Notes under the pieces: model-generated
Told to the model about the DNA's origin: nothing
Databases searched by the model: none
The model's input: only the letters and a program-made list of their open reading frames with translations
DNA from: Bacteroidaceae bacterium
GTDB taxonomy: Bacteria > Bacteroidota > Bacteroidia > Bacteroidales > Bacteroidaceae
Length of the DNA: 57,360 nucleotides
Reading direction: 5' to 3'
Assembly (NCBI GenBank): GCA_024401225.1
Contig: JAKSLM010000014.1
Span: forward strand, 1 to 57,360
Shown here: positions 9,395-42,272 of the stretch, one piece after another
How positions within the stretch are numbered: position 1 is the first letter of the stretch
Layout: every line of letters begins with the position of its first letter
Program-made: the position numbers and the translations under genes

Positions 9395-10633
9395 TTATTT
9401 CTTTTTCTTCTCGAGATATTCCATAAGCCCCTCCAACGTGTCGAAACGCTTGATGTCGAACTGAGGAGCGTAATAGTCATCCTCGATAAACACGGTCTTG
9501 CCATCATGACTGAAGTAGAAGGTATCAAAACCGAAGTGGCGCTTGACGTATGCACAGCGATCGCCTGCCTCCATCTCGAAGATGCCACTATAGAGTTCCT
9601 TGCTTGTGTCGCAACCTATCTGGTAAAGCGAACGGACATCGTACTTATCGCCCAACAACTTCTGCGCCTGCTCAATCTTTACGATATTGTTGGTAGCACA
9701 CACCAATGGACGCTTGCTCTTGAACTTACGCCTATCCGCCACTTTCATCTTGTCGAATCCCTCTCCCCACACACTATTAGCATCGCTCATGGACACGAAG
9801 CAGTAAGGGTCGATGTCCTTGATGAGGCGGAGCATGGCTGACTTTTCGCGATGGCGAACCACGCAAACTACTACTCGGCGGTCGGTATGGGTATACCATC
9901 CCTCACCATTGAGCACGGTGACTCCATGACCGTCCTTCACAAGATCGTCGGCTATAGCATCAGCATTGCGCGAGAAAATCATGAACTGAACCGACTGGTT
10001 GAGTCGACGCAGACTATAGTCGAGCGTCATCGAGGCAACGAAGAGGATCACGAATCCGTAGATCACACGTGCCCAGTCGTGGAAGATGAAGTAGCACGAA
10101 GAGATGATGATGACATCGCAAGCCATGATGACGGATCCGAGCGACATGTTCCTGTACTTATTTACAATGGCTGCAATGATATCCGTGCCACCTGTGGAAC
10201 CGTTGTTCTCAAAGCAGAAGGCAAGTCCCAATCCGCTACAGATAGAACCCAACACACTGGCCATAAAGAGCTCATCGCCTATGACACGAGGCAGCATCAT
10301 TGCACCCGGATTGGCAGGGTCGGGCGTCTCAAGCAGTCGCTGGAAGAGCCACATGGCAAACGACAGCATAGCGACTGCCCAGATGGTCTTCACGCAGAAA
10401 CGAAATCCAAGAATCTTGATAGCAAAGGCAAGCAGAAATACATTGATGGTCATGTAAGTGACCTGCACCTCAATACCAGTAGCATAGTATATGATGGCTC
10501 CGATACCTGCCACGCCACCCATGGTGAGGCCATAAGGAAGCATGAATACGGTGAAGCCGAGCGCATAAAGACATACGCCCACAAGAATGAGGGCGTAGTC
10601 TTTAATTTCATGTAATAAATGTGATTTGGTCAT
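9395..10633 (-). CDS. YitT-family membrane protein with fused HAM1/RdgB-like domain
   Basis: 412-aa protein in three parts. Residues 1-210 are a YitT (DUF161) membrane region with about five or six helices and the family motif STGGTDIIA (146-154). Residues 215-290 are a DUF2179-type cytosolic domain (VLNGEGWYTHTDRRVVVCVVR). Residues 308-382 align without gaps to the N-terminus of the RdgB encoded at 41499-42101 (about 26 identities in 69 positions by eye, including VCATNN, KYDVRSL, IGC and YVKRHFGFD). The RdgB catalytic DDSG is replaced by SHDG and the later SARY region is absent, so this domain is probably a non-catalytic sensor or scaffold. The gene follows leuS by 2 bases. The function of YitT proteins is unknown. 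Confidence 0.85.
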   Translation of the reverse strand: MTKSHLLHEIKDYALILVGVCLYALGFTVFMLPYGLTMGGVAGIGAIIYYATGIEVQVTYMTINVFLLAFAIKILGFRFCVKTIWAVAMLSFAMWLFQRLLETPDPANPGAMMLPRVIGDELFMASVLGSICSGLGLAFCFENNGSTGGTDIIAAIVNKYRNMSLGSVIMACDVIIISSCYFIFHDWARVIYGFVILFVASMTLDYSLRRLNQSVQFMIFSRNADAIADDLVKDGHGVTVLNGEGWYTHTDRRVVVCVVRHREKSAMLRLIKDIDPYCFVSMSDANSVWGEGFDKMKVADRRKFKSKRPLVCATNNIVKIEQAQKLLGDKYDVRSLYQIGCDTSKELYSGIFEMEAGDRCAYVKRHFGFDTFYFSHDGKTVFIEDDYYAPQFDIKRFDTLEGLMEYLEKKKK

Positions 10634-10635
10634 AT

Positions 10636-13494
10636 TTATTTCTTCAGAACGATATTGATCATCTTACCTGGCACTACGATAACCTTGTTGACCTGGAATC
10701 CTTCCATCCACTTTGCCGACTGCGGATCAGCAAGGGCAGCAGCCTCGGCAGCCTCCTTTGTGACATCAGCAGGGAACTCGAGTGGGAAGCGTGCCTTACC
10801 ATTGAAGGCAACCATCATCTTGACTGAATCCTCCTTGAGGTAATCATCGTTGAAGGCTGGCCATGGAGCATCGCATACGGTAGTATCGTGACCAAGCATC
10901 TCCCAGAGTTCCTCAGCGAGGTGAGGACAGAATGGAGCGATGAGAACCACGAGCGTCTCCTTGACTTCACGGCTTGTAGACTTGATCTTTGTGAGTTCGT
11001 TGAGGCAGATCATGAAGGCAGCGATACTTGTGTTGTAAGAGAACTGCTCAATATCGCCAGTCACCTTCTTGATGAGTGTATGGAGTGCTTTAAGCTCTTC
11101 CTTCGATGGAGCATCGGCTGTAGCAACGAGCTGATCGTCCTTACCGATGAAGAAGTTCCAGAACTTCTTGAGGAAGCGGTGGCAACCATCAATACCGTTT
11201 GTATCCCATGGCTTCGACTGCTCAACAGGACCAAGGAACATCTCGTAGAGACGGAGTGTATCAGCACCAAACTTCTCAACAATCATGTCTGGATTAACAA
11301 CGTTGAACATCGACTTCGACATCTTCTCAACAGCCCATCCACATACGTACTTGCCATCATCGTTGAGGATGAACTCGGCAGTTGCATATTCAGGACGCCA
11401 AGCCTTGAATGCTTCTACATCGAGGATATCGGCCGAAACGATGTTGACATCCACATGAATTGGAGTGACATCGTAGCCATCCTTCTTATCGAGCGAAACG
11501 AATGTGTTGGTATCCTTGATACGATATACGAAGTTGCTTCGTCCCTGAATCATACCCTGGTTGATGAGCTTCTGGAATGGTTCTTCCTTCACGCTAACGC
11601 CTAGGTCGAAGAGGAACTTGTTCCAGAATCGTGAGTAGATGAGGTGACCAGTAGCATGCTCCGAACCACCGACATAGAGGTCAACGTTCTGCCAGTACTG
11701 TGCAGCCTGCTCAGAGAGGAGTCCCTTGTCGTTGTGTGGATCCATGTAGCGGAGATAGTAGGCAGAAGAACCTGCGAAGCCTGGCATGGTGTAGAGTTCG
11801 ATTGGGAACACAGTCTCGTTGTCGATCTTTGTGTTCTCAACAATCTTCTTGTTTGCCTCATCCCACGCCCATACGGTAGCGTTGCCGAGTGGTGGTTCAC
11901 CAGTCTCAGTTGGGAGGAACTTATCGACCTGTGGGAGTTCGATAGGCAGACACTCCTCAGGAATCATGGTAGGTATACCTTTCTTATAATATACAGGGAA
12001 TGGCTCACCCCAATAGCGCTGGCGCGAGAAGATGGCATCACGCAGACGGTAGTTAACCTTCACACGTCCGAGATTGTGCTTCTTCACGAACTCCTTAGTT
12101 GCCTGGATGGCCTCCTTGATGGTCTTGCCGTTGAGGATGAGAGCCTCGCCATCATATTCCACAGCAGGATTGCCTTCGGCTGGCGAGTTGGTCACAATAC
12201 CTTCCTTTGCATCGTAGCTTTCCTCGCTAACGTCAGCACCCTCGATGAGAGGAACGATAGGGAGGTCGAAATGCTTAGCGAACGAGTAGTCGCGTGAGTC
12301 GTGGGCAGGAACCGCCATGATGGCACCAGTACCGTAGCCAGCAAGCACGTACTCTGCAATGTAGATAGGACACTTGTCGCCTGTGATTGGGTTGATACCG
12401 TAAGCACCGGAGAACACACCTGTCACGGTGTGATCAATCATACGCTCACGCTCTGTGCGTCCCTTTACATATTTAATATATTCATCGACTGCAGCACGCT
12501 GGTCAGGAGTAGTCACCATGTCCACGAGCTCGCTCTCAGGAGCAAGAACGAAGAATGTGACACCGAACATTGTATCGGCACGAGTAGTGAAGATAGTGAA
12601 GTCAACATCGCTGTCAGCTACCTTGATCTCGATCTCTGTACCCTCAGAACGACCAATCCAGTTCTTCTGAGTCTCCTTGATGGAATCGGACCATTCGATT
12701 GTCTCAAGACCATCGAGAAGGCGCTGTGCATAAGCGCTGACACGAAGACACCACTGGCGCATCTTCTTCTGCTCAACAGGGAAACCTCCACGCACGCTGA
12801 CACCATCGACTACCTCATCGTTGGCAAGCACGGTACCAAGACCTGCACACCAGTTGACCATAGTCTCGCCCATGAAGGCAATACGATAGTTCATCAGCAC
12901 ATCGCTCTTCTTCTTGTCGTCCCATGAGTTCCACTCATCGGCTGTGAACGACATGGTCTCGGTGCATGCCAGGTTGGTCCAGTCGCCTGTACCTTCCTTC
13001 TCGAAGTGTTCGATGAGCTTCTCAATAGGCATAGCCTTCTGATGCTTGTAGCAGAAGAACGAATTGAACATCTTCTGGAATGCCCACTGAGTCCAGTGGT
13101 AATAGCCAGGAGCACATGTGCGTACCTCGCGGTCCCAGTCGAAGCAGAATCCGATCTTGTCGAGCTGCTCGCGGTAGCGGTTGATGTTGGCAAATGTAGT
13201 CACCTCAGGATGCTGACCAGTCTGGATAGCATACTGCTCTGCTGGCAATCCGTAGGCATCATAACCCATTGGATTGAGCACGTTGTAGCCCTGAAGGCGC
13301 TTTGCACGTGCATAGATGTCGGATGCAATGTATCCGAGTGGGTGGCCTACATGAAGTCCCGCACCTGATGGGTAAGGGAACATATTGAGGACATAAAACT
13401 TCTTCTTGTTCTCATCTTCGGCAACCTTGTAGGTCTTGTTCTCGACCCAACGAGCCTGCCACTTCTTTTCTATCTGTTGAAAATTATATTCCAT
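10636..13494 (-). CDS. leuS: leucyl-tRNA synthetase
   Basis: 952-aa class I aminoacyl-tRNA synthetase that charges tRNA-Leu. The HIGH-type motif is HVGH within [16 protein letters not shown] (residues about 42-57) and KMSKS is present near 710, with an inserted editing domain between them and an anticodon-binding domain after. The length is somewhat over that of E. coli LeuS (about 860), as is common in Bacteroidota. It overlaps the end of ybeY by 11 bases and is followed by the YitT-type gene after 2 bases; the whole block from purL appears to be one transcript. Confidence 0.97.
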
Positions 13495-41498: not shown

Positions 41499-42101
41499 TT
41501 ACCCCAAAAACTCCACAAGCTTAGCAACGGCGCGGGCACGGTGGCTGATGCCATTCTTGATGTCGGCACCAAGCTCGGCAAACGTTTGGTCGTAACCACG
41601 GGGCACGAAGATAGGATCGTAGCCGAAGCCCTCGCTGCCACGGCGCTCGCGGATGATGTGCCCCTCTACGATGCCATCAAAATAGTGCGTAGCACCCTCG
41701 TAGATAAGGGCTATGCTGGTGCGGAAGCAGGCGCTGGTGTCGGGCGCTGACTCTGCCGAAGGCCAGAGCTTGGAGAGCAGCACCTGCATGTTGGCTGCGT
41801 CCTTGGTAGGCACCTCGTCCACACCATGCATACGGGCATAGCGCGCCGAATACACGCCCGGTTCGTCGCCAAGAGCATGCACCTGAAGTCCGCTGTCGTC
41901 GGCAAAACAGTCGTAGCCGAAGTGATCCTTGACATACTGAGCCTTCTGCAAGGCGTTCTGGCGGAAGGTGGTACCCGTCTCGGGGATGTCGGCGGTGCAG
42001 CCTATGTCGCTGAGCGACTTGACGTCAAACTTTCCAGCCAGCATGCTACGTATTTCTTCCAACTTATGGGCATTATTGCTCGCAAATACTAATGTTTTCA
42101 T
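41499..42101 (-). CDS. rdgB: XTP/dITP diphosphatase
   Basis: 200-aa HAM1-family pyrophosphatase that removes ITP, dITP and XTP from nucleotide pools. Motifs: VFASNNAHKLEEI (residues 5-17), catalytic FADDSGLQV (about 66-74), GVYSARYA, and a C-terminal FGYDPIFVP with SHRARA. The start at 42101 (MKTLVFASNN) is the family start; the extra upstream codons read through the hairpin element. The end of that element lies 2 bases from the start codon. Confidence 0.95.
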   Translation of the reverse strand: MKTLVFASNNAHKLEEIRSMLAGKFDVKSLSDIGCTADIPETGTTFRQNALQKAQYVKDHFGYDCFADDSGLQVHALGDEPGVYSARYARMHGVDEVPTKDAANMQVLLSKLWPSAESAPDTSACFRTSIALIYEGATHYFDGIVEGHIIRERRGSEGFGYDPIFVPRGYDQTFAELGADIKNGISHRARAVAKLVEFLG

Positions 42102-42102
42102 T

Positions 42103-42272
42103 CTTAAGTAGGTGTGCAGGATTATTTTTATAATGATTGTATTCAATAGTGATGCATATTCTGCGACTAATAAAAAGGAGTGTAGTGACTCCTACTCGAC
42201 TGTTATTAGATGCCGAAGATGCACAGTAGAGAGTGCAAAGATTGTATAAATAATTCTGCACACCTACTTATT
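42103..42272. repeat. MITE-like element filling the rdgB 5' leader
   Basis: AAGTAGGTGTGCAG(G/A)ATTAT occurs at both ends in inverted orientation, and the arms stay partly complementary inward to a GGAGTGTAGTGACTCC-centred core, so the whole 170 bases can fold as one long imperfect hairpin. Related single ends are at 9307-9330 and 53493-53541. It lies entirely between the rdgB promoter and start codon. Confidence 0.7.

Follow-up and report, generated by a model that had tools for sequence, protein, structure and literature searches.

A YitT-DUF2179 membrane protein encoded on a Bacteroidaceae bacterium contig continues past its DUF2179 domain into a C-terminal tail of 113 residues, which raises the question of where this tail came from and whether it is maintained as a functional part of the protein. 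The window, meaning the whole stretch of 57,360 nucleotides that was analysed, contains the following features relevant to this question.

9395..10633, reverse strand: whole open reading frame, YitT-DUF2179 plus mini-HAM1 tail, 412 aa (exact bounds of the frame)
9941..10600, reverse strand: YitT_membrane domain, residues 12-231 (Pfam PF02588, 192.5 bits, over the cut-off)
9764..9928, reverse strand: DUF2179 domain, residues 236-290 (Pfam PF10035, 69 bits, over the cut-off)
9398..9736, reverse strand: mini-HAM1 tail, residues 300-412, predicted to be a folded alpha/beta domain
9518..9712, reverse strand: tail residues 308-372, aligned at the sequence level to the N-terminal half of RdgB (BLASTP 26/65, E 1.2e-11; hhalign E 6.8e-13)
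9677..9694, reverse strand: retained TxNxxK loop, T314-K319, reading TNNIVK in the window and kept in most short tails
9398..9502, reverse strand: strands and final helix of residues 378-412, which would replace the excised middle and end of RdgB on an internal-deletion reading (fold match; weak on sequence alone)
10636..13494, reverse strand: leuS, directly upstream, with 2 nt between its end and the start codon of yitT; the usual yitT neighbour in relatives
41499..42146, reverse strand: standalone RdgB with catalytic motifs (Ham1, 205.6 bits)

Residues 1-290 carry YitT_membrane followed by DUF2179, both over the cut-off, and form an ordinary YitT-DUF2179 member. The Pfam description calls YitT "uncharacterised", and hydropathy analysis of the protein gave no clear topology. 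Genome-wide, the standalone RdgB is the only match over the Ham1 family cut-off. A second YitT-DUF2179 protein of the same genome, on another contig (L033 3404-4627, G000:C1:103000-111000), has a frame of 408 aa and a more diverged HAM1-like tail (36% identity); its counterpart in G030 is L034.

We conclude that the tail is very probably a remnant of RdgB (HAM1) that has been kept as a non-catalytic mini-HAM1 domain, and not debris. The homology, the predicted fold, the loss of motifs, the series of locus forms and the purifying selection that lead to this conclusion were all computed, and are described below.

Homology of the tail to RdgB

When residues 300-412 were compared by BLASTP with the 350 stop-to-stop frames of at least 60 aa in the window, the standalone RdgB was matched with 26 of 65 identical residues and no gaps (E 1.2e-11). 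Besides the tail itself and RdgB, a single other row was returned up to E 1, at E 0.10. An earlier note on this DNA had counted 26 of 69 identities by eye, which is nearly exact. Against family models, the tail reached 12.4 bits for Pfam Ham1p_like (PF01725), below the cut-off of 22.5, and its residues 310-372 reached 25.7 bits (E 8.5e-6) for NCBIfam NF011398, below the cut-off of 272; PF01725 was matched at E up to 1 by 2 of 31 tails, the best at E 0.0014. A profile built from 22 tails matched the window RdgB at E 6.8e-13 using hhalign. In profile-profile comparisons, the tail profile matched five of the long degenerate fusions found in relatives (see below) at E 6.5e-18, and a 31-tail profile matched 17 intact fused RdgB domains at E 1.5e-23. 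A PDB sequence search with the long degenerate form found a HAM1 chain; with the short-tail profile no HAM1 chain was found in PDB, and the remaining matches of short tails in the PDB and Pfam profile searches looked like chance.

The fold of the tail was predicted with confidence by AlphaFold from an input alignment of 31 rows, consisting of tail relatives only. Residues 8-111 of the predicted model align over residues 1-197 of RdgB, placing the tail, as modelled, in the Ham1 fold. For residues 378-412 taken by themselves, the hhalign score against a long degenerate fusion was 21.5, compared with 21.2 for the best of 60 shuffles; an intact RdgB domain gave no hhalign match. The earlier note had proposed a degenerate HAM1/RdgB fold attached to YitT-DUF2179, to be given up if a HAM1 profile match were absent or if the tail were disordered or of another fold. 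The profile-profile matches (E 6.8e-13 and E 1.5e-23) and the confidently predicted HAM1-like fold support this proposal. Chance or convergent resemblance, which would account for the score of the single tail sequence under the Pfam cut-off and for the PDB search by tail profile without a HAM1 chain, can be rejected with near certainty on the BLASTP match in the window (E 1.2e-11), the profile-profile match (E 1.5e-23), the fold match and the existence of full-length intermediates at the same locus.

Forms of the yitT-rdgB locus among relatives

The family search covered 399 genomes, and fusions were counted from the matches listed. Four states of the locus occur in the family, mostly beside leuS: separate genes, intact fusions, long degenerate fusions and short tails. 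Frames were read directly for 19 intact, 7 long and 29 short loci, for 2 paralogues and 2 loci of g215, and for G429 and G434. Among the relatives, 29 loci with a titled record come from metagenome-assembled genomes labelled Bacteroidaceae, Prevotellaceae or Bacteroidales, many of them ruminant-derived.

Where yitT and rdgB are separate, 6 of the 13 pairs that do not overlap have 0-6 nt between the yitT stop and the rdgB start. Because these loci were picked from read-through matches, a shared frame is a biased observation there and was not used as evidence. In G057, which belongs to another family, leuS, yitT and rdgB are consecutive. Intact, in-frame YitT-RdgB fusions were present in at least 29 genomes among the family matches listed, 19 of them established from the frames read and the other 10 from tables only. 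All 19 fusions that were read form one frame of 497-562 aa with leuS upstream, and a Met just before the RdgB part persists in 7 of them. Long fusions with an altered RdgB, again in one frame (545-567 aa), were found in 7 of the 45 genomes of the window's genus.

The earlier note had called for a survey of Bacteroidales YitT proteins for the same tail, and short tails like that of the window were indeed found in 30 of the 45 genus genomes; an assembly or frame error was rejected on this count. They are 108-126 residues long (24 genus loci), the tail in G434 being cut by the contig end, and all 30 matches to short tails in the genus are free of internal stop codons. Long and short forms together give degenerate tails in 37 of the 45 genomes, with leuS directly upstream in 13 of the 17 genus loci that have wide flanks. 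A fused tail was not found in the other 8 of 45, among them the near-complete G016, G017 and G026 (98-99% completeness), and the tail is therefore dispensable; these three genomes offer a natural absence for comparison. Outside the genus, short tails occur in G720 and, at about 95 residues each, in G549 and G468, where an intact separate rdgB directly follows the short tail with an overlap of 13 nt. No fused tail was found outside the family among the matches listed from order-wide (393 genomes) and phylum-wide (296 genomes) searches, and no YitT-RdgB fusion was present at the six flagged loci that were read (G095, G1060, G964, G1030, G1039 and G893). The structural half of the earlier note stands; what it missed is that the tail is one end of a series starting from intact YitT-RdgB fusions.

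The forms also differ in whether another RdgB is present. In 28 of the 29 intact-fusion genomes listed, the fused domain is the sole Ham1 match; the remaining genome, G568, has a second Ham1 match on a 4-kb contig, and the 9 intact-fusion genomes that are at least 90% complete have one match each. Within the genus of the window, a standalone RdgB is present in 42 of 45 genomes, and 35 of the 37 genomes with degenerate tails have a separate RdgB, the exceptions being G001 and G022 (80% and 88% complete). G720, G549 and G468 have one Ham1 match each, in its own frame. This division of labour is given as counts and not as a test, because the genomes of a clade are non-independent and many are incomplete.

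Loss of motifs and selection on the tail

Motifs were counted in one common alignment of the 19 intact, 7 long degenerate and 29 short forms. All tested residues are kept in 19/19 intact fusions, save the loop N (18/19). In the long degenerate fusions, the DD, F, Y, D, K and final R positions are kept in 7/7 and E41 in 4/7, and none of the 7 keeps N in the loop, H in SHR or R in SARY. These fusions (L027-L031, L148 and L149) carry, past the SARY region, an inserted stretch tens of residues long; SHR has become SQR and FGYDP has become FFYDS, and the positions of DD, F, Y, D, K and R are unchanged. Judged by these replacements, the long degenerate fused RdgB is a candidate for a changed substrate or ligand.

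In the short tails, the TxNxxK loop, which we take to be the triphosphate loop of RdgB/HAM1, is largely retained (T or S in 28/29, N in 27/29, K in 27/29). It is damaged in L023, L025, L033, L034, L136 and L137, so ligand binding by the loop is not the job of the tail everywhere. Of E41, D68 and D69, presumably the acidic metal-binding or catalytic residues of E. coli RdgB, the first two are absent in 29/29 short tails; the D69 column, where the alignment is uncertain, has D in 7/29 and E in 2/29. FGYDP, KNxIS and SHR, and with them the residues for base specificity, are gaps in 29/29, and the SARY column contains one R. The alignment therefore confirms the loss of the catalytic DDSG and of SARY that had been noted for the window's tail. 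A passage of PMC5075207 gives SHR as a signature of the ITPase family and places the base-specificity pocket of ITPase in the dimerisation lobe. On this loss of motifs, the idea that the short form has kept RdgB activity was rejected, and by known chemistry the short tail would not be expected to be an ITPase.

Selection was measured by the NG86 method on 188 short-tailed gene pairs, which overlap and were limited to dS values of 0.05 to 1.5 over residues 1-293. Median omega was 0.112 for the membrane domain, 0.090 for DUF2179 and 0.088 for the tail; purifying selection on the tail is about as strong as on the membrane domain. For long degenerate genes (nine pairs), the values were 0.105, 0.110 and 0.117, respectively. 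The tail of the window has changed faster than most, with dN of 0.44-0.59 versus 0.18-0.25 for the membrane domain in 8 pairs among those listed. The most similar tail found, that of G429, is 62% identical (membrane domain, 70%), with pN of 0.23 and pS of 0.73; between these two genes, silent sites are near saturation and the protein has been kept.

Simple decay was rejected on the omega of the tail. A neutral leftover of the fusion, still translated since it is harmless, might be argued from the 8 of 45 genus genomes in which no tail was found and from fast change in some lineages (L023/L025). Such a passenger would hardly show a median omega like that of the membrane part, a confident predicted fold, 15 invariant columns across 22 tails and no stop in the 30 genus matches; selection already disfavours this explanation, which we consider very improbable.

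Proposed history, possible role and known systems

The YitT tree has 78 rows, and its 29 short rows and 7 long degenerate rows group together as a single clade (100/98). Support is 99/85 for the long degenerate rows and 75/62 for the short rows of the genus plus G720, the latter becoming 83/93 without seven long-branched rows (L132, L157, L045, L156, L035, L044 and L043). A single origin of all fusions was rejected (AU test, P = 0.007; 0.0097 without the seven rows), and a separate fusion in G778, G771 and G694 is therefore probable. One clade of all short-tailed rows was rejected when all rows were kept (P = 4e-7) and was disfavoured for the 33 rows left without the seven (P = 0.03); only after their removal do all 40 degenerate rows form one branch (90/84). 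The history of g215 is unsure, since in the tree of all rows it falls together with the long-branched L132. A tree of RdgB made by a quick method unites the 37 standalone RdgBs of the genus in a single clade (99) and places the long degenerate domains, on a stem 1.15 changes per column in length, next to the intact g232 fusions (85).

We propose that an ancestral yitT with rdgB just downstream came to share one reading frame with it, most simply through loss of the yitT stop codon. Lineages with intact fusions would have kept the membrane-anchored RdgB, as a rule the only RdgB found there. The enzyme work would have passed to a separate rdgB in the ancestor from which the window's lineage descends, after which the fused copy would have lost catalytic residues. 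In most descendants an internal deletion probably trimmed it to about 105 residues, leaving what appear to be the strands and helices of the N-lobe, the phosphate-binding loop and the last helix, a unit that is predicted to fold and is still under selection. The internal deletion is weakly indicated by sequence, and the modelled fold match supports it. We infer this order of events, as well as a cytosolic C-terminus and a regulatory or assembly role. RdgB substrates are cytosolic nucleotides, and the intact fusions thus suggest that the C-terminus of YitT lies in the cytosol.

The role of the tail is held far less surely than its origin and maintenance. Our preferred reading is that it serves YitT as a regulatory or assembly domain in the cytosol; the mini-domain would most likely be non-catalytic and would aid assembly or gating with the adjacent DUF2179, perhaps via a phosphate-containing ligand. 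That it is a stability or assembly module only, holding the C-terminus or an oligomer together without any small ligand, has nearly even chances. In its favour, invariant positions occur throughout the fold, with VRSL, GCD and KKxxGFDxF among the stretches that contain them, and not just in the ligand loop, and the loop is lost in some members; however, retention of TxNxxK in most members would be needless for mere stability.

A nucleotide sensor controlling a transporter, the functional half of the earlier note, is unlikely; on this reading YitT would be gated by a tail still capable of binding a purine nucleotide, much as the HAM1-like KomB binds dITP in Kongming defence. The short tail is missing the region with the signature residues (F/Y/D, K and H/R), the specificity pocket belongs to the dimerisation lobe as a passage of PMC5075207 describes it, E41 and D68 are absent throughout the 29 short tails, and the loop lysine is no longer present in several tails. 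With the base pocket gone, the short form is improbable as a specific sensor of ITP/XTP; a looser response to phosphate or nucleotide is possible. Also unlikely is that the mini-HAM1 domain is a repurposed phosphate- or nucleotide-responsive switch gating a YitT that moves purine-related solutes. If this were true, the intact fusions would couple a membrane-anchored enzyme for nucleotide cleaning to a transporter of its own, and this pair would later have become an enzyme-free sensor.

Searches of a library of open-access papers found no pairing of YitT with RdgB and no YitT fusion to a HAM1/ITPase domain. The domains themselves are known; the YitT-RdgB fusion was not found in print in these searches, and its shrunken non-catalytic derivative is kept by selection. 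A fused and preserved RdgB copy ties YitT, an orphan transporter-like family, to nucleotide upkeep, and the intact fusions, whose RdgB is usually the sole Ham1 match (28 of the 29 genomes listed), provide a clue to the working partner of YitT. With separate genes, intact fusions, degenerate fusions and shrunken tails, one family holds a stepwise record from an enzyme to a non-catalytic domain.

Other one-frame joins of RdgB were seen in single examples, and unlike the window's tail their Ham1 parts score far over the cut-off (193-228 bits). They are a DUF2809 protein followed in frame by a complete Ham1 domain (L175 1162-2121, G1039; 320 aa), a class V aminotransferase with a C-terminal Ham1 domain (L173 1626-3368, G964; 581-aa frame) and Ham1 joined to a PorZ-like type IX secretion protein (L161 1-2535, G568:C95; 845-aa frame, the Ham1 start cut by the contig end). 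At L177, a PorZ frame adjoins a separate rdgB.

KomB of the Kongming anti-phage system (8zsg, 9xvc) shares the HAM1-like fold with the predicted tail, and a passage of PMC12948488 describes it as binding dITP as a signal. KomB chains have 180-184 residues and act with KomC, whereas the tail of the window is without the specificity region; the partners of KomB are KomA and KomC, and the neighbour seen beside yitT is leuS. With the RdgB/HAM1/ITPase family (PF01725, NF011398; E. coli RdgB 2q16, human ITPA), the tail has in common the predicted fold, the N-terminal sequence, TxNxxK and the last helix. Solved chains of that family have about 180-210 residues, compared with 113 in the tail, which is attached to a membrane protein and lacks DD(S/T)G, SARY, FGYDP and SHR. 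A passage of PMC6516651 likens the C-terminal domain of BB0017, a YitT protein, to PII and PII-like proteins. Among YitT-DUF2179 proteins (PF02588, PF10035), the window protein is an ordinary member over residues 1-290, to which it adds a C-terminal HAM1-derived domain in the place where related genera have a complete RdgB.
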